The translations under genes and the position numbers were made by a program. From Ramlibacter sp. (lineage in GTDB: Bacteria > Pseudomonadota > Gammaproteobacteria > Burkholderiales > Burkholderiaceae_C): a DNA stretch of 64,000 nucleotides. The stretch is from the NCBI RefSeq assembly GCF_028291745.1, contig NZ_JAQGNQ010000093.1:1-64000 (forward strand), read 5' to 3'. Numbering within the stretch: the first letter of the stretch is position 1; each line of letters opens with the position of its first letter. Below the pieces are notes generated by a model. That model searched no databases. It saw nothing but the letters and a program-made list of their open reading frames with translations, and had not been told where the DNA came from. Shown one piece after another: positions 3,708-56,656 of the stretch.

Positions 3708-3790
3708 GATGTCATCCCGGGCTTGACCCGGGATCCATGCGGCGCTTGATCACAGGCCGCGTGGATTGCGGGTCAAGCCCGCAATGACAT
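3708..3790. repeat. Dispersed double-palindrome repeat, copy A
   Basis: Two related inverted hairpins face each other: GTCAT-CCCGGGCTTGACCCGGG-ATCCA at the left and TGGAT-TGCGGGTCAAGCCCGCA-ATGAC at the right, separated by about 25 bp. The ends are complementary, so the whole unit is also an imperfect palindrome. It lies between the convergent ligase and tag genes, where it may act as a bidirectional terminator. The same element recurs at 8191-8276, 10631-10714 and 36775-36860. Confidence 0.9.
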
Positions 3791-5713: not shown

Positions 5714-7354
5714 TTGTCCGCCTCGCCCTTCAGCGCCGAAGTCCAGCGCCGCCGCACCTTCGCCATCATCTCGCACCCCGACGCGGGCAAGACCACGCTC
5801 ACGGAAAAGCTGCTGCTGTTCTCCGGCGCGATCCAGATCGCCGGCGCCGTGAAGGGCCGCAAGGCCTCGCGGCACGCGACCAGCGACTGGATGGAAATCG
5901 AGAAGCAGCGCGGCATCTCGGTGGCCTCCTCGGTGATGCAGATGCTGTACCGGGACCACGTGATCAACCTGCTCGACACCCCCGGCCACAAGGACTTCTC
6001 CGAAGACACCTACCGTGTGCTGACCGCGGTCGACGCGGCCCTGATGGTGATCGACGCGGCCAACGGTGTCGAGGCGCAGACGCGCCGGCTGATCGAGGTC
6101 TGCCGCCAGCGCGACACGCCCATCATCACCTTCGTCAACAAGATGGACCGCGAGGTGCGCGAGCCGCTCGACATCCTCGACGAGGTGGAGCGCGAACTCG
6201 GCATGCCCTGCGTGCCCATGACCTGGCCGGTCGGCAAGGGCAAGGGCTTCGGCGGCATCATGAACCTGCGCACCCAGGCCATGACGGTGTTCGAGTCCGG
6301 CAGCGAGCGCCGGTCACAGGACTTCGACACGATTGCGCTGAGCGACCACGCCGAACTGCGCAAGCGCTTCGGCGCCGAATACGACGCGGCCGCCGAGAGC
6401 ATGGAACTGGCGGCCGGCGCCTCGCCCGACTGGGACCGCGCGGCCTTCCTCGCGGCCAGGCAGACGCCCGTGTTCTTCGGCTCCGCCGTCAACAACTTCG
6501 GCGTGATGGAAGTGCTCGATGCCCTGGTGGACCTCGCGCCGGCGCCGCAGCCGCGCAAGAGCCACGCCGTGGTCAATCGCCAGCCGGTGGAGCGCGTGGT
6601 GGAGCCCGACGAAGCGACCTTCTCCGGTGTGGTGTTCAAGGTGCAAGCCAACATGGATCCTTCGCACCGCGACCGCATCGCCTTCGTGCGCATGGCCTCG
6701 GGCAAGTACACGCCGGGCATGAAGCTCAAGGTGCAGCGCACGGCCAAGGAACTGCGTCCGACCTCGGTGGTCACGTTCCTGTCGCAGCGGCGCGAAGCCG
6801 TGGACGAGGCCTATGCCGGCGACATCATCGGCTTCACCACGCACGGCGGTGTGCAGCTCGGGGACACGATTACCGACGGCTCGGTGAACCTGCAGTACAC
6901 CGGGCTGCCCTTCTTCGCACCGGAGTTGTTCCAGGTCGTGATCCTGAAGAATCCGCTGCGCACCAAGCAGCTGCAGCAAGGCCTGGCGCAGCTCGGTGAA
7001 GAAGGCGCGATCCAGGTGTTCCGGCCGCACGTGGGCGGGCCGATGCTGCTGGGGGCGGTGGGCCAGCTGCAGTTCGAGGTGGTGCAGCATCGCCTGCGCG
7101 GCGAGTACGACTGCGACGTGCGGCTCGAAGGCTGCCCGTACACGGGCGCGCGCTGGATCACCGCCGATACCCCGGCCGAATTGAAAGCCTTCACCGATGC
7201 CTATCCGCAGCGGCTGGCGCTGGACGCGGCGGAGGCGCTGGCCTTCCTGTGCACCTCGCCCTACGACGTGCGCCTGGCGCAGGAGCGCTTTCCGAAGATC
7301 CATTTCCACCTGCTGCGCGAGCACGCGGGGCTGGCGCTGCAGAAGGCTGGCTGA
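5714..7354 (+). CDS. prfC: Peptide chain release factor 3 (GTPase)
   Basis: Translational GTPase that recycles RF1/RF2 from the ribosome after termination. The order is an N-terminal G domain with SHPDAGKTT (G1, about residues 20-28), DTPGHKDF (G3) and NKMD (G4), then the beta-barrel and C-terminal domains. The RF3-specific insert around GKGKGFGGI distinguishes it from EF-G. Length is 546 residues, in line with the family (about 530). I place the start at TTG 5714, because GGAG sits 8 nt upstream and the resulting N-terminus fits the family; an in-frame GTG at 5693 would add seven residues without a ribosome site. The next gene begins immediately after the stop codon. Confidence 0.96.
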   Translation: MSASPFSAEVQRRRTFAIISHPDAGKTTLTEKLLLFSGAIQIAGAVKGRKASRHATSDWMEIEKQRGISVASSVMQMLYRDHVINLLDTPGHKDFSEDTYRVLTAVDAALMVIDAANGVEAQTRRLIEVCRQRDTPIITFVNKMDREVREPLDILDEVERELGMPCVPMTWPVGKGKGFGGIMNLRTQAMTVFESGSERRSQDFDTIALSDHAELRKRFGAEYDAAAESMELAAGASPDWDRAAFLAARQTPVFFGSAVNNFGVMEVLDALVDLAPAPQPRKSHAVVNRQPVERVVEPDEATFSGVVFKVQANMDPSHRDRIAFVRMASGKYTPGMKLKVQRTAKELRPTSVVTFLSQRREAVDEAYAGDIIGFTTHGGVQLGDTITDGSVNLQYTGLPFFAPELFQVVILKNPLRTKQLQQGLAQLGEEGAIQVFRPHVGGPMLLGAVGQLQFEVVQHRLRGEYDCDVRLEGCPYTGARWITADTPAELKAFTDAYPQRLALDAAEALAFLCTSPYDVRLAQERFPKIHFHLLREHAGLALQKAG

Positions 7355-8152
7355 GTGCAGCCGCTGCACGCGTGGCCGCTGGCCGAGCGCGCGCGCATCC
7401 GCGGCGTATTGACGGACATCGACGACACGCTCACGACCGAGGGCGCCGTCACGCCCGACGCGCTGGCGGCGCTGACCGATCTCGCCCGCGCGGGGCTGCA
7501 CGTCATTGCGATCACCGGGCGGCCGGTGGGTTGGAGCGAGCCGTTCGCGCTGCAATGGCCGGTGGCTGCCATCGTTGCGGAGAACGGCGCCGTGGCGCTC
7601 ACGCGGGGCGCCGACGGCGGCGTGCGCAAGCTGTATGTGCAGGACGCCCGGCAGCGCGCGGCCAATTACGCGCGCCTGCAGCAGGTCGCGCAGCGCATCG
7701 TGCGCGAAGTCCCTGGCGCGACGATCTCGCGCGACAGCAGCGGCCGCGAGACGGACATTGCGGTCGACCACAGCGAGTTCGCGCAGCTTTCCGGGCAGCA
7801 GATCGCGCAAGTGGTGGCGGTGATGCACGAGCAGGGGATGAATGCCACGGTCAGCTCGATCCACATCAACGGCTGGTATGGCGATCACAACAAGTTGTCG
7901 GGCGCGCGCTGGATCGCGCGCGAGCTGCTGGCGTGCGATCTCGATGCGGAGCTCGATCGCTGGGTGTATGTCGGCGACTCGACCAACGACGTGCTGATGT
8001 TCGAGCACTTCCCGCACAGCGTGGGGGTGGCCAACATCCGGCGCTTCCTGGCCGCACTGGCGTTCAAGCCGCGGTATGTGACGCAAGGGGAACGCGGGGC
8101 GGGTTTCGCGCAAGTGGCGCGGGCGATCTTGCGAGCACAAAGGACGTCCTGA
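7355..8152 (+). CDS. HAD-superfamily IIB (Cof-like) phosphatase
   Basis: Predicted Mg-dependent phosphatase of the HAD IIB group, whose members act on sugar phosphates and related metabolites. Motif I DIDDTL supplies nucleophile Asp21 and acid/base Asp23, motif II is ITGRP, the motif III lysine is in HNKLSGARW, and motif IV is GDSTNDVLMF. The 265-residue length and cap between motifs II and III fit mannosyl-3-phosphoglycerate or sucrose phosphatases, but I cannot name the substrate. Start GTG 7355 directly abuts the prfC stop, so translation is probably coupled. The 3' end runs into a 12-bp tandem repeat (8140-8199) that encodes the last four residues and the stop. Confidence 0.9.
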   Translation: MQPLHAWPLAERARIRGVLTDIDDTLTTEGAVTPDALAALTDLARAGLHVIAITGRPVGWSEPFALQWPVAAIVAENGAVALTRGADGGVRKLYVQDARQRAANYARLQQVAQRIVREVPGATISRDSSGRETDIAVDHSEFAQLSGQQIAQVVAVMHEQGMNATVSSIHINGWYGDHNKLSGARWIARELLACDLDAELDRWVYVGDSTNDVLMFEHFPHSVGVANIRRFLAALAFKPRYVTQGERGAGFAQVARAILRAQRTS

Positions 8153-8199
8153 AGGATGTCCTGAAGGACGTCATGAAAAATGTGACGAAGGATGTCATT
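8140..8199. repeat. Five tandem copies of a 12-bp unit
   Basis: AAGGACGTCCTG, AAGGATGTCCTG, AAGGACGTCATG, AAAAATGTGACG and AAGGATGTCATT follow one another without gaps. The last unit is the left end of dispersed repeat copy B, so the array looks like a local expansion of the repeat's end sequence. The first unit holds the stop codon of the HAD phosphatase gene. Confidence 0.9.
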
Positions 8200-8276
8200 G
8201 CGGGCTTGACCCGCAATCCAGGCAGCGCCTGAACAAGCGCCGTCGTGGATCCCGGGTCAAGCCCGGGATGACATCC
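8191..8276. repeat. Dispersed double-palindrome repeat, copy B (inverted relative to A)
   Basis: The same element as at 3708-3790 but in reverse orientation: the GCGGGCTTGACCCGC hairpin comes first and the CCCGGGTCAAGCCCGGG hairpin second, bounded by GTCATT and ATGACATCC. It separates the convergent HAD phosphatase and glutamine-amidotransferase-like genes. Confidence 0.9.
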
Positions 8277-8298
8277 AGGAAACCCCCGAGGACATCCT

Positions 8299-10630: not shown

Positions 10631-10714
10631 GGATGTCGTCCCGGGCTTGACCCGGGATCCATGCGGCGCTTGATCGGTGGCCGCATGGATTGCGGGTCAA
10701 GCCCGCAATGACAT
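10631..10714. repeat. Dispersed double-palindrome repeat, copy C
   Basis: Same orientation as copy A: CCCGGGCTTGACCCGGG hairpin first, GCGGGTCAAGCCCGC hairpin second, ending in ATGACATG. It lies between the convergent outer-membrane protein and uvrA genes. One base change from copy A breaks the left GTCAT (GTCGT). Confidence 0.9.
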
Positions 10715-36774: not shown

Positions 36775-36860
36775 GATGTCATTGCGGGCTTGACCCGCAA
36801 TCCACGACGGCGCTTGTACAAGCGCTGCATGGATCCCGGGTCAAGCCCGGGATGACATCC
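36775..36860. repeat. Dispersed double-palindrome repeat, copy D
   Basis: Same orientation as copy B: GCGGGCTTGACCCGC hairpin first, CCCGGGTCAAGCCCGGG hairpin second, bounded by GATGTCATT and ATGACATCC. A partial extra end (CCCGGGGACGACATCC) follows at 36870-36886. It lies between the 3' end of the ankyrin gene and the 5' side of the alpha/beta hydrolase gene, the only copy not between convergent genes. Confidence 0.9.
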
Positions 36861-49871: not shown

Positions 49872-51664
49872 CACGCCGCTCCGGGGATGTAGGTGCGCGA
49901 ACGCGAGGTGACCTTGCGGATGCGCTCCAGCGGAATCTTGGGCGAGCGGTCCGCGTGCAGCAGCCCGTTGGCCTCCTGGAAGGTGTCGGCGAATTGCGTG
50001 TAGCAGAAGCCCGAGAACAGCGCCGTGTTGACGATGGTCTCCAGCAGCGCCTCGTAGTGCCGGGCGAAGGTCTCGGGGTCGCTGATCTCGGTGTAGCCCC
50101 AGACCTTCTTCACGCCCTCTTCGGTGTGCGTCTGGTAGGTGATGCCGCCGAATTCGGTCAGCATGATCGGCTGGCCCTGGTGCGGATAGCCATCGAGCGT
50201 CAGCACGCGGCCCCCGGGGCGGCGCCGGTCGAACAGCTGCTCCGTCTCCACCTCGGGTCCGTAGCGCTGGCGGATGTGATCGAGGTTGGAGTCGTAGTCG
50301 TGGATGCCGATGATGTCGGTGGCCGAGGACTCCCATCCGTCGTTGCCGATCACCGCCCGGCTCTGGTCGAGGGTCTTGGTCAGGTGATAGAGCGCCTCCA
50401 CCGCGTGCCGGTGGGCCTGCACCGATGGCAGCTCCGGCACGCCCCAGGACTCGTTGAAGGGAACCCACACGATGATGCAGGGGTGGCTGTAGTCGCGGTC
50501 GATCGCCTCGGTCCACTCGCGGATCGTGCGCTTGATGGCGGTGCGGGTGAAGCGGTAGGCCGAGGGCATCTCCTCCCACACCAGCAGGCCCAGCTTGTCG
50601 GCCCAGTACAGGTAGCGCGGGTCCTCGATCTTCTGGTGCTTGCGCACGCCGTTGAAGCCCATCTCCTTGGCGAGCTCCACGTCCCGCTTCAAGGCTTCGT
50701 CGTCCGGGGCGGCCAGCAGCGTGTCGGGCCAGTAGCCCTGGTCCAGCACCATGCGCAGCACGTAGGGCCGGCCATTGAGCATGAAGCGGTCGCGCAGCAC
50801 CGTGGCCGAACGCAGCGCGGTGTACGACTGCACCTCGTCGACCATCTCTCCCTTGAGCCACAGGCGCAGCCTGGCATCGATCAGCGTGGGCCGCTCGGGG
50901 CTCCACAGCAGCTCGTTGCGGAAGTCGTCGATCCCGGGATCGGAAAGGACGACATAGCGATCGACCTCGCCGTCGACCACGCGATAGCGGTCCCTGGCCA
51001 GCAGGCGGTCGCCCGCGCGCAGCTCCAGTTCGAGCGAGGCCTCGTCGCCGGCGACGCCTTCGATGCGCGCCTCGAAGCCGAGGGCGAAGCCCTCCAGCCG
51101 GGGCGTCCAGCGGATCTTGTCGATATAGGTGGTCGGCACCCGCTCGAACCACACCGTCTGCCAGATGCCGGTGGTGCGGGGATACCAGATCGAGTGCGGC
51201 TCGAGTTGCCAGTCCTGCTTGCCGCGCGGCTTGGTGAGGTCGAACGGATCGTCCTCGGCGCGCACCGTCACCGTCTGCACGCCGTCCGGCCTGAGCATCT
51301 CCGTGATGTCGGCCCAGAAGGGGGTGTGGCCGCCTTCGTGGGTCACTGCCAGCTGGCCGTTGACCCAGACGCGCGCCGAATAGTCGATGGCGCCGAAGCG
51401 CAGGATCACGCGGTCGCGCCCGGGCTTGCACTCGAATTCGCGCTCGTACCAGCAGGCGTGGTGGAAGCCGCGATCGCCGATGCCGCTGGCTTTCGATTCG
51501 GGTGGAAACGGCACGGTGATTTCCAGCGGCCAGTCCGCCACCTCGGCGGGACAGTTGAGGCAGGCTTCGTCGTCGAAGCGAAAGCGCCAGCGGCCGTTGA
51601 GCGAAGTCCATTGGGCCCGCTGCAGTTGCGGGCGGGGATAGCCATGTTGCGAGCCGGTCTGCAA
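49871..51664 (-). CDS. Glycoside hydrolase family 2 protein (beta-galactosidase/glucuronidase type)
   Basis: A 597-residue three-domain GH2 enzyme: N-terminal jelly-roll (SLNGRWRFRFDDE, VWVNGQLAVTHEGGHTPFWADIT), immunoglobulin-like middle and catalytic barrel. NGVRKHQKIEDPRYLYWADKLGLLVWEEMPS precedes the acid/base Glu in PFNESWG (about 403), and the nucleophile is in MLTEFGG (about 503). No signal peptide is seen, so it acts inside the cell. The downstream galT and galK make a beta-galactosidase role most likely. The start is taken as TTG 51664, with AGGAG 7 nt upstream and the fold beginning soon after; no ATG fits. A candidate operator lies 25 bp upstream. Confidence 0.9.
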   Translation of the reverse strand: MQTGSQHGYPRPQLQRAQWTSLNGRWRFRFDDEACLNCPAEVADWPLEITVPFPPESKASGIGDRGFHHACWYEREFECKPGRDRVILRFGAIDYSARVWVNGQLAVTHEGGHTPFWADITEMLRPDGVQTVTVRAEDDPFDLTKPRGKQDWQLEPHSIWYPRTTGIWQTVWFERVPTTYIDKIRWTPRLEGFALGFEARIEGVAGDEASLELELRAGDRLLARDRYRVVDGEVDRYVVLSDPGIDDFRNELLWSPERPTLIDARLRLWLKGEMVDEVQSYTALRSATVLRDRFMLNGRPYVLRMVLDQGYWPDTLLAAPDDEALKRDVELAKEMGFNGVRKHQKIEDPRYLYWADKLGLLVWEEMPSAYRFTRTAIKRTIREWTEAIDRDYSHPCIIVWVPFNESWGVPELPSVQAHRHAVEALYHLTKTLDQSRAVIGNDGWESSATDIIGIHDYDSNLDHIRQRYGPEVETEQLFDRRRPGGRVLTLDGYPHQGQPIMLTEFGGITYQTHTEEGVKKVWGYTEISDPETFARHYEALLETIVNTALFSGFCYTQFADTFQEANGLLHADRSPKIPLERIRKVTSRSRTYIPGAA

Positions 51665-51688
51665 GTCTTGTTCTCCTGAAAACGCGCA

Positions 51689-51704
51689 GCGAAAAGCTTT
51701 GCGC
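51689..51704. promoter_or_regulatory. Candidate LacI-type operator before the GH2-galT-galK operon
   Basis: GCGAAAAG (51689-51696) and CTTTGCGC (51697-51704) form a 16-bp dyad with one mismatch and no spacer. It is nested inside AACGCGCA (51681-51688) and TGCGCGTT (51700-51707), a second perfect inverted repeat. The position, 25 bp upstream of the GH2 start, suits a repressor site of LacI type. No repressor gene is adjacent, and the nitrile hydratase gene could also be affected because it is transcribed away from the same gap. Confidence 0.45.
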
Positions 51705-51793
51705 GTTGCGGCCGGCCGGCCTGTCGGACAAGCGCTTGAATCCTGTTTATTGCCTCCTTGCCGCCCGGCGGCGGCTGCGGCACACTGCCGCGC

Positions 51794-52429
51794 ATGGCGA
51801 CGCAGGATCCCCACGACGGGCACGAACACGGGCACAGCGACCTCGACGCGACCGAGCTGCGGGTGCGCGCCCTGCAGAGCATCCTCACGCAAAAGGGCTA
51901 CATCGATCCGGCCGCCCTCGACGAAATCGTCGACACCTACCAGACCCGAATCGGCCCGCGCAACGGCGCGCGCGTGGTGGCCAAGGCCTGGTCGGACCCG
52001 GCGTTTCGCGAATGGCTGGAGCGCGATGCGTCCGCCGCGATCGCCTCGCTGGGATACACCGGCCGGCAGGGCGAGCACATGGTGGCGCTCTTCAGCACGC
52101 CGCAGGTGCACCACCTGGTCGTGTGCACGCTGTGCAGCTGCTATCCGTGGCCGGTGCTGGGCCTGCCGCCGGCCTGGTACAAGAGCGCGGCGTACCGCGC
52201 GCGGGCCGTGCGGGATCCTCGTGGGGTGCTCGCGGACTTCGGCGTGAGCTTGCCGCCCGGACAGGAGATCCGCGTCTGGGACTCCACGGCGGAAGTGCGC
52301 TACCTGGTCATTCCGCAGCGGCCGGCCGGCAGCGAAGTGCTCGCCGAGGACCAGCTCGCCGACCTGGTGACGCGCGACGCGATGATAGGCACCGGCCTGC
52401 CGCGCGCGCCGGCCGGCGTGGCGCCTTGA
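51794..52429 (+). CDS. nthA: Nitrile hydratase alpha subunit, cobalt type
   Basis: Metal-bearing subunit of nitrile hydratase, which hydrates nitriles to amides in the cytoplasm. The 211-residue chain has the metal-binding claw [10 protein letters not shown] with Cys111, Cys114, Ser115 and Cys116; Thr after the first Cys indicates the cobalt form. [31 protein letters not shown] is the conserved N-terminal helix pair, and [21 protein letters not shown]-type C-terminal sequence is present. Thiocyanate hydrolase gamma is the main alternative, but the unsplit beta gene argues against it. An antisense lipoprotein gene ends 1 bp after its stop, separating it from nthB. Confidence 0.94.
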
Positions 52430-52430
52430 C

Positions 52431-52736
52431 TCACTGGCCGATGGCCGTGCCGCCGGTGGCCGAACCCGCAGTCCCGGTGCCGGTGCTTGTCGTGGTCGTC
52501 CCGGTGGTGGTGGTGCCCGTGGTGGTCGTGGTGCTGGTCGTGCTCGGGGTGCTGGTATCGGGCGTGTTCGTGATCCCGGAAGACGGGCCGGTGGACACGT
52601 TCGGATTGCCGTTGCTCACGCACTCGGCCGCGCTGCCGGAGCAGGTGCCCGGGTTGCCCCCACCGCCGCCGCACGCGGCGAGCGCCACGGCGCAAAGCAC
52701 CGCCGGAAAGATGAGTGCCAGGATTCGTTCTTGCAT
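52431..52736 (-). CDS. Low-complexity putative lipoprotein between the nitrile hydratase genes
   Basis: A 101-residue protein whose N-terminus is a lipoprotein signal ending VALAAC (lipobox LAAC, about 19-22) followed by GGGGG. The rest is Ser/Thr/Gly/Asn-rich, ending in long Thr runs (STTSTTTTTGTTTTGT...), presumably a flexible linker without fold. The same lipobox-Gly-run style is found in the lipoprotein at 56660-58630. ATG 52736. It is on the strand opposite to nthA and nthB and fills most of the gap between them. Low-complexity sequence makes expression less certain. Confidence 0.6.
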   Translation of the reverse strand: MQERILALIFPAVLCAVALAACGGGGGNPGTCSGSAAECVSNGNPNVSTGPSSGITNTPDTSTPSTTSTTTTTGTTTTGTTTTSTGTGTAGSATGGTAIGQ

Positions 52737-52817
52737 GCTTGCCTCCCGCGACGATTATGGTTCCCATTGGCGCGCTGCGTCCCCCGTGCCATCATTCCGC
52801 GCGCAAGGAGGTTGCCT

Positions 52818-53477
52818 GTGAGCTACACCACGCATGCCGATCTCGGTGGCGAACCGGGCTTGGGCCCGGTGCTGCCGCAAGCCGGGGAGCAGCTCTTTCA
52901 CGAAGCATGGGAGCCCGCGGCACTGGCCATCGTGCTGGCGATGGGCGCGACGGCCAGCTGGAACATCGACATGAGCCGCTCGGCACGCGAGACGCTGCCC
53001 GCGTACCGAGCCCTCGCCTACTACCAGATCTGGCTGGCCGCCCTCGAACGATTGATGCTCGAACGCGGCCTGCTGCAAGCCGACGAACTCGCTGCGGGCC
53101 GCATGCTGCATCCGCCCGTGCCGGTCGCCCGCGTGCTGCACGCTGGCGATGTCGCGGCAACGCTCGCGCGGGGCTCGCCGACCACCCGGGACGAAGGACC
53201 GCCTGCGCACTTTCGCGTTGGCGACCCGGTGCGCACGCGCGCCGACGCGGTGCCGCATCACACGCGACTGCCCGCTTACGCGCGCGGCAAGGTGGGCACG
53301 GTGGAACGCGTGCACGGTCGCCACGTGTTCGCCGACACGCACGCGCATGGCCTGGGCGAACAGCCGCAGCCGCTGTACACCGTGGTGTTCGCCGGCAGCG
53401 AACTGTGGGGCGCCGACGCGGCGCCGGGACTGCGCGTCTCGATCGACGCCTGGCAGCCTTACCTGCAAGCCGCCTGA
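52818..53477 (+). CDS. nthB: Nitrile hydratase beta subunit
   Basis: Partner of the alpha subunit. The 219-residue chain has the N-terminal helical part (THADLGGEPGLGPV, FHEAWEPAALAIVLAMG, WNIDMSRSARETLPAYRALAYYQIW) and the C-terminal SH3-like barrel (FRVGDPVRTRADAVPHHTRLPAYARGKVGTVERVHG, and YTVVFAGSELWGADA). Both parts are intact in one gene, which favours nitrile hydratase over thiocyanate hydrolase. The start is GTG 52818, directly decided by AAGGAGG 6 nt upstream. Normally this gene directly follows or precedes alpha; here 388 bp with an antisense gene intervene. Confidence 0.93.
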   Translation: MSYTTHADLGGEPGLGPVLPQAGEQLFHEAWEPAALAIVLAMGATASWNIDMSRSARETLPAYRALAYYQIWLAALERLMLERGLLQADELAAGRMLHPPVPVARVLHAGDVAATLARGSPTTRDEGPPAHFRVGDPVRTRADAVPHHTRLPAYARGKVGTVERVHGRHVFADTHAHGLGEQPQPLYTVVFAGSELWGADAAPGLRVSIDAWQPYLQAA

Positions 53478-53596
53478 GCCAGGCCATGCCCTACACTGGG
53501 GCTGCACGGGAAAAGGGACATGGCCACCGCACCGATTCCGACACCGCAAGCCGCGCGGTGTCTGCACCCATCGAGCAGTGCGCCGCAGTTACGGCC

Positions 53597-53797
53597 TCAG
53601 TCGGCGAGCGCGCGGCGCAGGATGTCCGCTTCGTCGCGCATCATGTGCAGGCTGTGCGCAAAGGCGTCCCGTGCCGCGTCCTGGCCCACAGGCCCGGGCG
53701 GCAGCAACTTGTGCCGCGCCAGGGCCGCATCCAGCAGCCGCAGCGCCTGCCGCATCTCCGCCACATGGGAGCGTCGGCTGTGTTCACTTTCGGACAT
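53597..53797 (-). CDS. Small hypothetical protein, 66 residues
   Basis: A charged, helical 66-residue protein (MSESEHSRRSHVAEMRQALRLLDAALARHKLL...) with no recognised family. It contains several His and ends RRALAD. It lies antisense between nthB and the Crp-type regulator and is divergent from the latter, sharing a 64-bp gap that has TATAGA, a possible -10 element. The ribosome site is weak. Plausible but unproven. Confidence 0.45.
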   Translation of the reverse strand: MSESEHSRRSHVAEMRQALRLLDAALARHKLLPPGPVGQDAARDAFAHSLHMMRDEADILRRALAD

Positions 53798-53861
53798 AGC
53801 TGCACTATAGATGAGGCCTGTCCGCTTTTAACGGCATGTGCACGTAAAAAGGGAATCGAAG

Positions 53862-54581
53862 ATGGACAGTGTGCATTCGGATCTGCGGGCCAACCGCCTG
53901 CTCGCGATGCTGGACGACGCCACCCTGCACGCGGTGGCGGCACAGCTGGAGCCGGTGACACTGAGCTTGCGGCAGAACCTCTACGAAGAGCGCCAGACGA
54001 TGACGCATGCCTGGTTCCCGGCCGAGGGCGTGCTGTCCATGCTGGGCGCCGCGTCCGCCGCGGACACGCCGGTCGAAGTCGGCACTATCGGCTCGGAAGG
54101 CATGCTGGGCGTGGCCGTTTTCCTGGGTGCGCAGGAGAGCCCGGGCACCGTGTTCGTGCAGGTGGAAGGCCGCGGCTGGCGCATGAGTGCACGGGCCCTG
54201 CGCGACTGCATCGAGGCGCACAGCGGTCTGCGCTTCGTGCTGCAGCGCTACACACACGCGTTGATGGTGCAGATCTCCCAGAGCACGGCGTGCAACCGCG
54301 CGCACAGCGTGGAACAGCGCTGCGCGCGCTGGCTGCTGGAGACGCACGACCGCGTGCGCGGCGACGTCTTCGACCTGACGCAGGAATTCCTGGGCCAAAT
54401 GCTCGGCGAGCGGCGCGCCACCGTGAACCAGGTGGCCACCACGCTGCAGGAGCGCGGCCTGATCCGCTACATGCGCGGGCGCATCGAAGTCAGGGACCGG
54501 GCCGGCCTCGAGGCGCTTGCGTGCGGCTGCTACCGGTTTGTGCAGGAGGAGTTCGCGCGCGTCTTGCAGCGCGCCGCCTGA
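53862..54581 (+). CDS. Crp/Fnr-family transcriptional regulator
   Basis: A 239-residue regulator with an N-terminal cyclic-nucleotide-binding fold (about 10-135; GTIGSEGMLGVAVFLG is the phosphate-cassette region but lacks the Arg that binds cAMP phosphate) and a C-terminal winged helix (DLTQEFLGQMLGERRATVNQVATTLQERGLIRYMRG). There is no N-terminal Cys cluster for Fe-S, so it is neither Fnr nor clearly cAMP-responsive. ATG 53862 has AAGGGAA upstream. It is 5 bp before the nitrile hydratase accessory gene, so it may regulate this locus. TTTTAACG...CGTAAAA just upstream might be its own site. Confidence 0.88.
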   Translation: MDSVHSDLRANRLLAMLDDATLHAVAAQLEPVTLSLRQNLYEERQTMTHAWFPAEGVLSMLGAASAADTPVEVGTIGSEGMLGVAVFLGAQESPGTVFVQVEGRGWRMSARALRDCIEAHSGLRFVLQRYTHALMVQISQSTACNRAHSVEQRCARWLLETHDRVRGDVFDLTQEFLGQMLGERRATVNQVATTLQERGLIRYMRGRIEVRDRAGLEALACGCYRFVQEEFARVLQRAA

Positions 54582-54586
54582 GCCTC

Positions 54587-54997
54587 ATGGCCGCGCCACT
54601 CGAACTTCCCGGATTGCCGCGCGACGAGGCCGGCCCGGTGTTCCGTGCGCCGTGGCAGGCACAGGCTTTCGCGCTGGCATTGGCGCTGTACGAACACGGC
54701 CTCTTCACCTGGCCAGAGTGGGCGCAGGCGCTGGCCGATCGCATCCGCGCCGCGCCGGCGCAAGCGGCCGAGGACGCCGGGGATGCCTACTACCGGCAGT
54801 GGCTGGAAGCGCTGGAGGCCATCGTGGCCGTCAAGGGCGCGAGCTCGCCGGCGGAGCTGCAGCGCTACCAGCAGGCGTGGGACCATGCCGCCGACCGCAC
54901 GCCGCACGGGCGGCCGATCGAATTGCGAACCTCCGACTTCCGCGACTCGCCCCAGGCGTCGGCAGCAACGCCGCTCAGTCCGCCAGCAAGCGGCTGA
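54587..54997 (+). CDS. Nitrile hydratase accessory protein (p14K-like)
   Basis: A 136-residue protein of the nitrile hydratase accessory family, which delivers cobalt to the alpha subunit through self-subunit swapping. It resembles the N-terminal half of the beta subunit: GPVFRAPWQAQAFALALALYEHGLFTWPEWAQALADRI and YYRQWLEALEAIVAVKG. The C-terminus (GRPIELR...) is short. It is separated from nthB by a small antisense gene and a Crp-type regulator, an unusual order, yet it is on the same strand and confirms the locus. ATG 54587. Confidence 0.88.
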   Translation: MAAPLELPGLPRDEAGPVFRAPWQAQAFALALALYEHGLFTWPEWAQALADRIRAAPAQAAEDAGDAYYRQWLEALEAIVAVKGASSPAELQRYQQAWDHAADRTPHGRPIELRTSDFRDSPQASAATPLSPPASG

Positions 54998-55355
54998 GCT
55001 CGGACGCCTCGGTCGAGACGTAGAGCGCGCATTTGCGGCGCGCCTCGTGGATCGCCACCTTGTGGCGTCCATGGAAGGCCACCACGCGGCCGTTGATGCG
55101 CGTCGGCGCGCGCATCGTCCACAGGGCATGCATCAGGTCGACGCGGCTGATCAGCAGCTCGGTCCAGGTGGTGGTCAGCCGCGGCAGTGTCTCCGCGAGC
55201 ATCTGAATGCGGTCGAACCGTTCGGAGAGCTCGCGATACAGCTCTGGATCCCAGCGCAGCTCGAGCAGGCGGCGCAGTCCGCTCTCGTACGCCGCCAGCT
55301 CGGACCTCAGTTCGGACGCGATCGTGGCTTGCTCGGGCGAGTGGGAAGGAAACAT
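54975..55355 (-). CDS. Hypothetical protein, 126 residues
   Basis: Unknown protein, mostly helical: TIASELRSELAAYESGLRRLLELRWDPELYRELSERFDRIQMLAETLPRL suggests two long helices; TTTWTELLISRVDLMHALWTM and GRVVAFHGRHKVAIHEARRKCALYV follow. No signal peptide or membrane segment. It overlaps the end of the accessory gene by 23 bp, tail to tail. The start is taken as ATG 55355, although the frame extends to 55532. No function is proposed. Confidence 0.6.
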   Translation of the reverse strand: MFPSHSPEQATIASELRSELAAYESGLRRLLELRWDPELYRELSERFDRIQMLAETLPRLTTTWTELLISRVDLMHALWTMRAPTRINGRVVAFHGRHKVAIHEARRKCALYVSTEASELSRLLAD

Positions 55356-55528
55356 GCGGTGCTCGGCTTTGGAAACGAAAGGCCACTTTACAGTTCCTAC
55401 ACAACAGCGCGCAAGGTGTCTCCTCCCGATGGGGGAGGGATGACGAATCGATACGGAAAACTTCCCGGTCCATGGCTCCGCGAGCGCCAGGCGCCGCGCT
55501 TCGCGCTGCCTGTGGCGCAGCGGCAGCA

Positions 55529-55903
55529 TCACGCGCCTGCGAAGGCGGCGCTGAATGCCGCACAGAACGCGGCCGTGCCGGTGAGGGTCAACGTGAGCGT
55601 CACGCGCGGACTGCCGGTGCCCGCGTCGCGCAGTTCGATGGTGGCGCCGGCCTCGTCATAGCGCACAGCCAGCGGCGTGCTGAGTTCGCGCACACCGTCG
55701 AGGTGACAGTCCCATTCACCCCCTTCGTCCAGGTGTGCCGGTGCACCGAACAGAGCGTGGGCCCAGGCCAGCACCCGCGCGATCTCGGCCTGCAGAGCTG
55801 GCAGTCGAGGCTCGTCCACCGCGGCCATCGCGTCGAAGCTGCCATGGCCCTCCTCGTCATCGCTGTGATCGAATTCCAGATAGCTGAGCGGCTGCAAGGA
55901 CAT
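55529..55903 (-). CDS. Hypothetical protein, 124 residues
   Basis: Unknown acidic protein (MSLQPLSYLEFDHSDDEEGHGSFDAMAAVDEPRLP...) with a helix around LQAEIARVLAWAHALFG and a beta-rich second half (TPLAVRYDEAGATIELRDAG). It ends in an Ala/Phe-rich stretch. No family recognised. ATG 55903. The 170 bp to the preceding gene contain a CCTCCC/GGGAGG hairpin (about 55425-55440) resembling the repeat read through in uvrA. Confidence 0.6.
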   Translation of the reverse strand: MSLQPLSYLEFDHSDDEEGHGSFDAMAAVDEPRLPALQAEIARVLAWAHALFGAPAHLDEGGEWDCHLDGVRELSTPLAVRYDEAGATIELRDAGTGSPRVTLTLTLTGTAAFCAAFSAAFAGA

Positions 55904-55987
55904 GCGCCGATCATAGGCACACCTCTTTACAGCGACGGCGGCGGCTGCGTGCTAGCTTGCGAGTGGGGAAGTTCCCGGGGAGACGCC

Positions 55988-56656
55988 ATGGACCTCAACC
56001 TCCTGCTCACGGTGGCCATCATCCTGCTGCTGGCGGTGATCGCCGCGGCCGCGGTGATGCGGCGCCGCCGCTCGCGCCAACTGGCGCGCCGCTTCGGCCC
56101 CGAGTACGAGCGCACGGTGCAGGCGATGGGGCATCGCGGCCGCGCCGAGGCGGACCTGATGGCACGCGAGCAGCGCGTGCAGCAACTGGACATCGTGCCG
56201 CTGGCCGCGCACGAGGCACAGCGCTTCCGGATGGAGTGGCAGGGACTGCAGGCGCGCTTCGTCGACAGCCCCCGCAGCGCCGTCGCCGAGGCCGACCTGC
56301 TGGTGCGCGACGTGATGCTGCGCCGCGGTTACCCCATGGGCGACTTCGAGAGCCGCGCGGCCGATCTCTCGGTGGACCACCCGCAGGTGGTGGAGCATTA
56401 CCGCGCGGCCCATGCGATCGCGCTCAGCGACCGCCAGGAGCACCAGGCCGACACCGAGGCCCTGCGCCAGGCGCTGGTGCACTATCGCGCGCTGTTCTCC
56501 GAACTGCTGGAAGTCACCGATGACACGGTGCCGCGCCGCCAGGACGGCCTGGAGCGCGCGCCGCAGCGCACCTTGCGTGGCAGCCAGCCGCCCGAACGCG
56601 CGCTCGCCCGCGACGAACCGGTCGCGCGCGAGCGCGAGCGCCGCAGCGCGCGATAG
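55988..56656 (+). CDS. Membrane-anchored hypothetical protein, 222 residues
   Basis: One N-terminal membrane helix (LLLTVAIILLLAVIAAAAVM, about 4-24) followed by RRRR and a long charged cytoplasmic domain, with coiled-coil-like stretches (QALVHYRALFSELLEV). ATG 55988 has GGGGAG 5 nt upstream. I do recognise its general plan (positive-inside anchor plus soluble helical domain resembling DUF-type secretory proteins with the RFGPEYERTV motif), but no function is known to me. The C-terminus is Arg/Glu-rich and disordered. It converges on the next gene with 3 bp between. Confidence 0.78.
   Translation: MDLNLLLTVAIILLLAVIAAAAVMRRRRSRQLARRFGPEYERTVQAMGHRGRAEADLMAREQRVQQLDIVPLAAHEAQRFRMEWQGLQARFVDSPRSAVAEADLLVRDVMLRRGYPMGDFESRAADLSVDHPQVVEHYRAAHAIALSDRQEHQADTEALRQALVHYRALFSELLEVTDDTVPRRQDGLERAPQRTLRGSQPPERALARDEPVARERERRSAR

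Follow-up and report, generated by a model that had tools for sequence, protein, structure and literature searches.

A Crp-like regulator gene between the beta and activator genes of a Co-type nitrile hydratase cluster shared by a Ramlibacter lineage

Cobalt loading of Co-type nitrile hydratases requires an activator protein, and the activator gene usually lies close behind the genes for the two subunits. In the sections of the literature consulted, the activator gene of Pseudomonas putida NRRL-18668 (P14K) starts 2 bp past the beta stop codon (PMC3511329), and Variovorax boronicumulans CGMCC 4969 has the order alpha-beta-activator (PMC11573777). The same sections describe CblA of Rhodococcus rhodochrous M8, a cobalt-responsive repressor called a downstream regulator (PMC11573777), and, as other modes of nitrile hydratase regulation, NtrC in Ensifer adhaerens and induction by amide or urea in R. 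rhodochrous J1.

The DNA analysed here was a 64,000-nt stretch of a Ramlibacter sp. genome (the window). By family assignment, positions 51794–54997 of the window are a Co-type nitrile hydratase locus with alpha, beta and activator genes, all scoring over the curated NCBIfam cut-offs (alpha, TIGR01323, 301.5 bits against 249.85; beta, TIGR03888, 204.7 against 152.2; activator, TIGR03889, 95.1 against 46). The alpha product contains VCTLCSC, in which we take CTLCSC to be the metal motif, and the best solved relatives carry the Co-type label. The closest alpha gene (85% identity) was in a genome of the same genus, G014. The genes of the locus and its downstream neighbours were mapped as follows.

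51794–52429, forward strand: nthA, nitrile hydratase alpha with the VCTLCSC motif (family search, motif)
52431–52736, reverse strand: small threonine-rich lipoprotein gene (101 aa), a sporadic insertion (gene mapping, relatives)
52818–53477, forward strand: nthB, nitrile hydratase beta, GTG start (family search)
53597–53797, reverse strand: s66, 66-aa product, divergent from crp, no Pfam match
53862–54581, forward strand: crp, Crp-like regulator gene (Pfam, tree, paralogue alignment)
54587–54997, forward strand: nitrile hydratase activator (accessory) gene (family search)
54975–55355, reverse strand: p126, overlapping the 3′ end of the activator gene on the opposite strand
55529–55903, reverse strand: p124, a conserved neighbour in several relatives, including the crp-less G037

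The usual contiguous order alpha-beta-activator, which is customary and not a strict requirement, was broken in the window by two insertions. The initial annotation had described the three genes as split by inserted genes and a Crp-like gene, with the lipoprotein gene ending 1 bp from nthA; the mapping agreed on both points, the single base 52430 lying between the latter two genes. Nor was the arrangement peculiar to one assembly, since the order beta-crp-activator was found in six other genomes and alpha-lipoprotein-beta in one other. No Pfam match was obtained for s66, p126 or p124, even with E values up to 10. In G048 and G030, too, crp has a p126 relative next to it. The p126 family is multicopy within the genus, and one member in the window's own genome (G000, contig C95, 12715–13962) adjoins another Crp gene. 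The upstream flanks of the crp-bearing clusters vary: the window and G021 have one gene in common, presumably resembling beta-galactosidase, and G023 and G026 have others. A repeat of ~64 bases in the window (3726–3789, 8193–8257, 10650–10713 and 36777–36841), some copies of which match on both strands, has a further match at the beginning of the G048 stretch (L176, 1–64; 87–89% identity in the better orientation) and looks like a dispersed palindromic element.

To place the two insertions, 98 loci were mapped in addition to the window, namely the top 80 among 577 relatives plus 18 stretches taken from the genomes of relatives. Three incomplete loci (L068, L072 and L125) were dropped, leaving 96 complete rows, in which two contigs are counted twice (L032/L127 and L036/L126). 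In these 96 rows, which include the best 80 of 577 relatives, the median gap between beta and activator was 6 nt, and the gap exceeded 200 nt in ten: seven with crp, two (L059 and L078) with a second beta match, and L124 (G050), where alpha and beta are fragmented. The second beta-like match lies between beta and activator, at 8298–8927 of L059 and 8244–8825 of L078. The seven clusters interrupted by crp (the window, G014, G011, G026, G021, G023 and G056) made up 7 of the 96 rows overall and 7 of 19 within Ramlibacter, counting complete clusters of this alpha type and including the window. Among the remaining mapped loci, only L120 (G008) gave a crp match (E 1e-3), to a different Crp paralogue (6707–7378, 38% identical) that starts ~70 nt past the activator match. 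A second, more distant alpha type (45–49% identical) was seen in G007, G012, G016, G020, G025, G053 and G055; within 1.5 kb of loci L028–L030, and of nine other loci (L019–L027), there was no crp match. The alpha-beta gap exceeded 200 nt in two of the 96 rows, the window (388 nt) and G023 (427 nt), and was 115 nt in G021. By this mapping, the insertion of the Crp-like gene is a lineage trait and that of the lipoprotein gene is sporadic. The window cluster is best read as a real, lineage-shared variant of the known cluster, in which a changed control of the activator is plausible.

In five of the seven clusters the end of crp and the start of the activator gene share 4 nt (ATGA; GTGA in G011); the two genes are 5 nt apart in the window, without overlap, and 14 nt apart in G021. 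From this overlap, the activator is probably expressed together with the regulator, and its coupling to beta appears to have been replaced by coupling to crp; the adjoining of a regulator gene and an activator gene hints at separate control of the activator. We consider it fairly probable that an ordinary Co-type cluster gained s66 and crp between nthB and the activator gene, and that the activator switched from beta-coupled to regulator-coupled expression. The observed gene order, its conservation, the stop/start overlap in five of seven clusters and the compatible trees (below) underlie this reading, and its regulatory steps are our interpretation of them. The gain would have taken place within Ramlibacter, probably once, in an alpha-beta-activator cluster, uncoupling the activator from nthB and coupling it to crp. 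Regulator and activator would be transcribed together on a single mRNA from the conserved −10 region of crp, so that the amount of the cobalt-loading activator would track that of the regulator, not of the subunits. The Crp-like protein may act at the crp promoter, and perhaps at that of nthA as well, and the facing s66 and crp promoters may compete for polymerase. The lipoprotein gene would be a separate sporadic insertion, after which nthB would need either transcription continuing from nthA or its own promoter.

The window regulator is named Crp-like by its DNA-binding domain only. A Crp-type helix-turn-helix was recognized (PF13545, 61.1 bits against a cut-off of 27), and the cyclic-nucleotide-binding domain stayed under its cut-off (PF00027, 20.9 against 27.5 bits). 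In the alignment, FGELSIFDPGPRTSS of the compared chain, residues of a kind that presumably contact cNMP, pairs with LG-VAVFLGAQESPG of the window protein. Other Ramlibacter Crp/Fnr-like proteins are ~40% identical to the regulator and alignable with it over nearly the whole length, but the lineage of the window regulator formed a starred clade separate from 14 paralogues (100/100) and has other residues in the recognition-helix region (ERRATVNQ, against VRREGVTE in three paralogues aligned). This lineage (at least 53% identity) was present in 9 of 60 genus genomes, the seven with crp in the cluster plus G048 (64%) and G030 (53%). No alpha match was found in G048 (~93% complete) or G030; the regulator is therefore not strictly dedicated to nitrile hydratase, nor confined to genomes that encode it. 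In a family sample of 399 genomes from 141 genera, into which few members of the genus were drawn and in which at most seven candidates were scored per genome, only the window and G021 matched at E 1e-60. A short conserved protein (71–74% identical) is encoded near crp in the G048 (L176, 8982–9398), G056 and G023 stretches.

A tree built from the three nth proteins placed G037 together with the crp-bearing clusters in a starred group of eight (98/94). The crp label required two changes on this tree, a number as low being reached in 0 of 500 shuffles, and a single clade of the seven crp-linked clusters was not rejected (p-AU 0.102). G037 lies within the crp-linked clade, yet has the standard order and no crp match, which calls for a loss, a transfer or a second gain. 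In the Crp tree, G048 branched first (others 84/98, unstarred) and G030 fell among the seven with a long branch; a single clade of the seven was again not rejected (p-AU 0.371). The pairs G026 with G023 (starred), G056 with G014 and G021 with G011 (both unstarred) were compatible with the nth tree. The rpoB tree covered 14 genomes, 7 of 23 giving no rpoB match (G056, G002, G046, G019, G041, G048 and G068) and G042 and G050, with partial matches, being left out. On it the crp label required four changes, as low in 190 of 500 shuffles, and was not clustered, which is therefore no demonstration of simple vertical descent; all six crp-linked genomes present sat in one starred group of nine with G030, G037 and G047. 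The cluster may thus have been passed from one species to another, or lost repeatedly.

Divergent from crp, s66 (64–71 aa) was found in seven of eight loci examined, 63–69 nt from the crp start: in six of the seven nth-linked clusters (all but G023) and in G048. In G030, the surroundings of crp gave no s66 match. The following promoter-like sites were located.

53804–53831, reverse strand: s66 promoter-like site (TTAAAA, 16 nt, TATAGT; consensus scan, conserved box)
53827–53832, forward strand: putative crp −10 box (TTTAAC; conserved in seven of eight crp loci)
51758–51786, forward strand: putative nthA core promoter (TTGCCG, 17 nt, CACACT; by eye), 7 nt before the ATG

A [CT]TATAGTG box stands 5–8 nt ahead of the s66 ATG in seven of the eight crp loci, and a TATAA or TTTAA box for crp occurs in seven of eight, G021 being the exception. 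By our own count, 16 nt separate the facing hexamers in the six loci that carry both boxes, except in the window, one of the six, where the distance is 17 nt; with this spacing each occupies the −35 position of the other, and we infer that the two promoters exclude each other. A CTATAG/CTATAA pair considered as an operator was rejected; it fits promoters better, because in G023 the s66-side box disappeared along with s66 while the crp-side box stayed. A consensus scan of 51500–56000 gave one promoter-like site, that of s66 (shuffles, mean 0.1), and did not recover the putative nthA promoter. nthA looks leaderless, with a −10-like box 7–8 nt before its ATG; similar boxes were seen by eye in other crp-bearing genomes and in some crp-less ones, such as G013, G015 and G037.

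No binding site common to the nthA and crp promoters was established by a dyad search, which is weak on GC-rich DNA and was compared with mononucleotide shuffles only, or by eye. With two mismatches the best score was matched by 3 of 12 shuffles; with one mismatch the top three scores (0.71, 0.70 and 0.68, against 0.57 for the best shuffle) belonged to GC-rich motifs mainly from nthA regions (five of seven with none of eight crp regions, four with one, and three with two).

These data bear on how far the regulator belongs to this locus, to which the initial annotation had thought it might be specific. The idea is supported in part: the lineage lies inside the nth cluster in seven of nine holder genomes and has a tree compatible with that of nth, but G048 and G030 have it without alpha, and a common nthA/crp operator was not established. 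A stronger version, in which a dedicated local regulator, bound at the nthA promoter, would control the entire cluster upon a nitrile, amide or cobalt signal, draws on the same linkage and on the regulator's own recognition-helix residues. We regard it as rather unlikely, given the two holders without nth, the nthA box seen by eye in crp-less relatives too, and the common operator not having been established.

That last result also suits neutral hitchhiking, in which the s66-crp module landed by chance, has other targets, and the activator is merely read through. The module occurs as s66 plus crp without nth in G048, crp stands with a p126 relative in G030, and the crp label is unclustered on the rpoB tree. 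This account is unlikely, however, as crp kept its place in seven genomes despite differing upstream flanks, and the 4-nt crp/activator overlap is tight in five of the seven. Switched coupling of the activator, the preferred reading, has a more elaborate form that we think quite unlikely as a whole: a Crp-like one-component regulator without a canonical cNMP domain would have captured the activator in a translationally coupled unit, with maturation regulated and the facing s66 and crp promoters serving as a switch.

The lipoprotein gene has a relative in G023 at the same position and in the same orientation (53% over 49 residues). A further relative in G030, a genome without an alpha match, shows the Cys-Gly and PGTC pattern too, and matches were found in 17 of 60 genus genomes, low-complexity ones among them; the gene is taken as a dispersed small lipoprotein gene. 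The initial annotation had counted inserted genes found elsewhere, with standard nth order in relatives, against its reading; such occurrences were found for the lipoprotein gene and, in part, for the Crp pair. Both opposite-strand genes fill gaps and overlap neither nthA nor nthB, so the word antisense does not hold for them; only a read-through transcript, should one exist, would be antisense to them. The convergence of nthA and the lipoprotein gene one base apart, with no terminator-like site found in 51500–56000, means that transcripts could overlap, but the proposal that opposite-strand transcripts tune subunit balance by lowering beta or activator expression was set aside as highly improbable, given the absence of coding overlap, the sporadic lipoprotein gene (2 of 96 clusters, the best 80 of 577 relatives included) with relatives away from nth, and s66 staying beside crp in G048 without nth.

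If the activator was captured by the regulator, it would be maturation of the enzyme that is regulated rather than synthesis of its subunits. An activator gene beside a regulator gene lets one ask if maturation can be a control point of a metalloenzyme, and the Ramlibacter lineage also poses the question of how tightly chaperone and subunit expression must match.

The CblA and NtrC systems resemble the window in that a regulator acts on the nitrile hydratase genes or is linked to them. In the consulted sections of PMC11573777, PMC8955678 and PMC3511329, neither these nor the J1 induction is described as involving a Crp-like regulator between beta and activator. P. putida NRRL-18668 and V. boronicumulans CGMCC 4969 have the same three proteins in the same order as the window, but in the window the activator gene follows a regulator gene, not beta, and a lipoprotein gene lies between alpha and beta.
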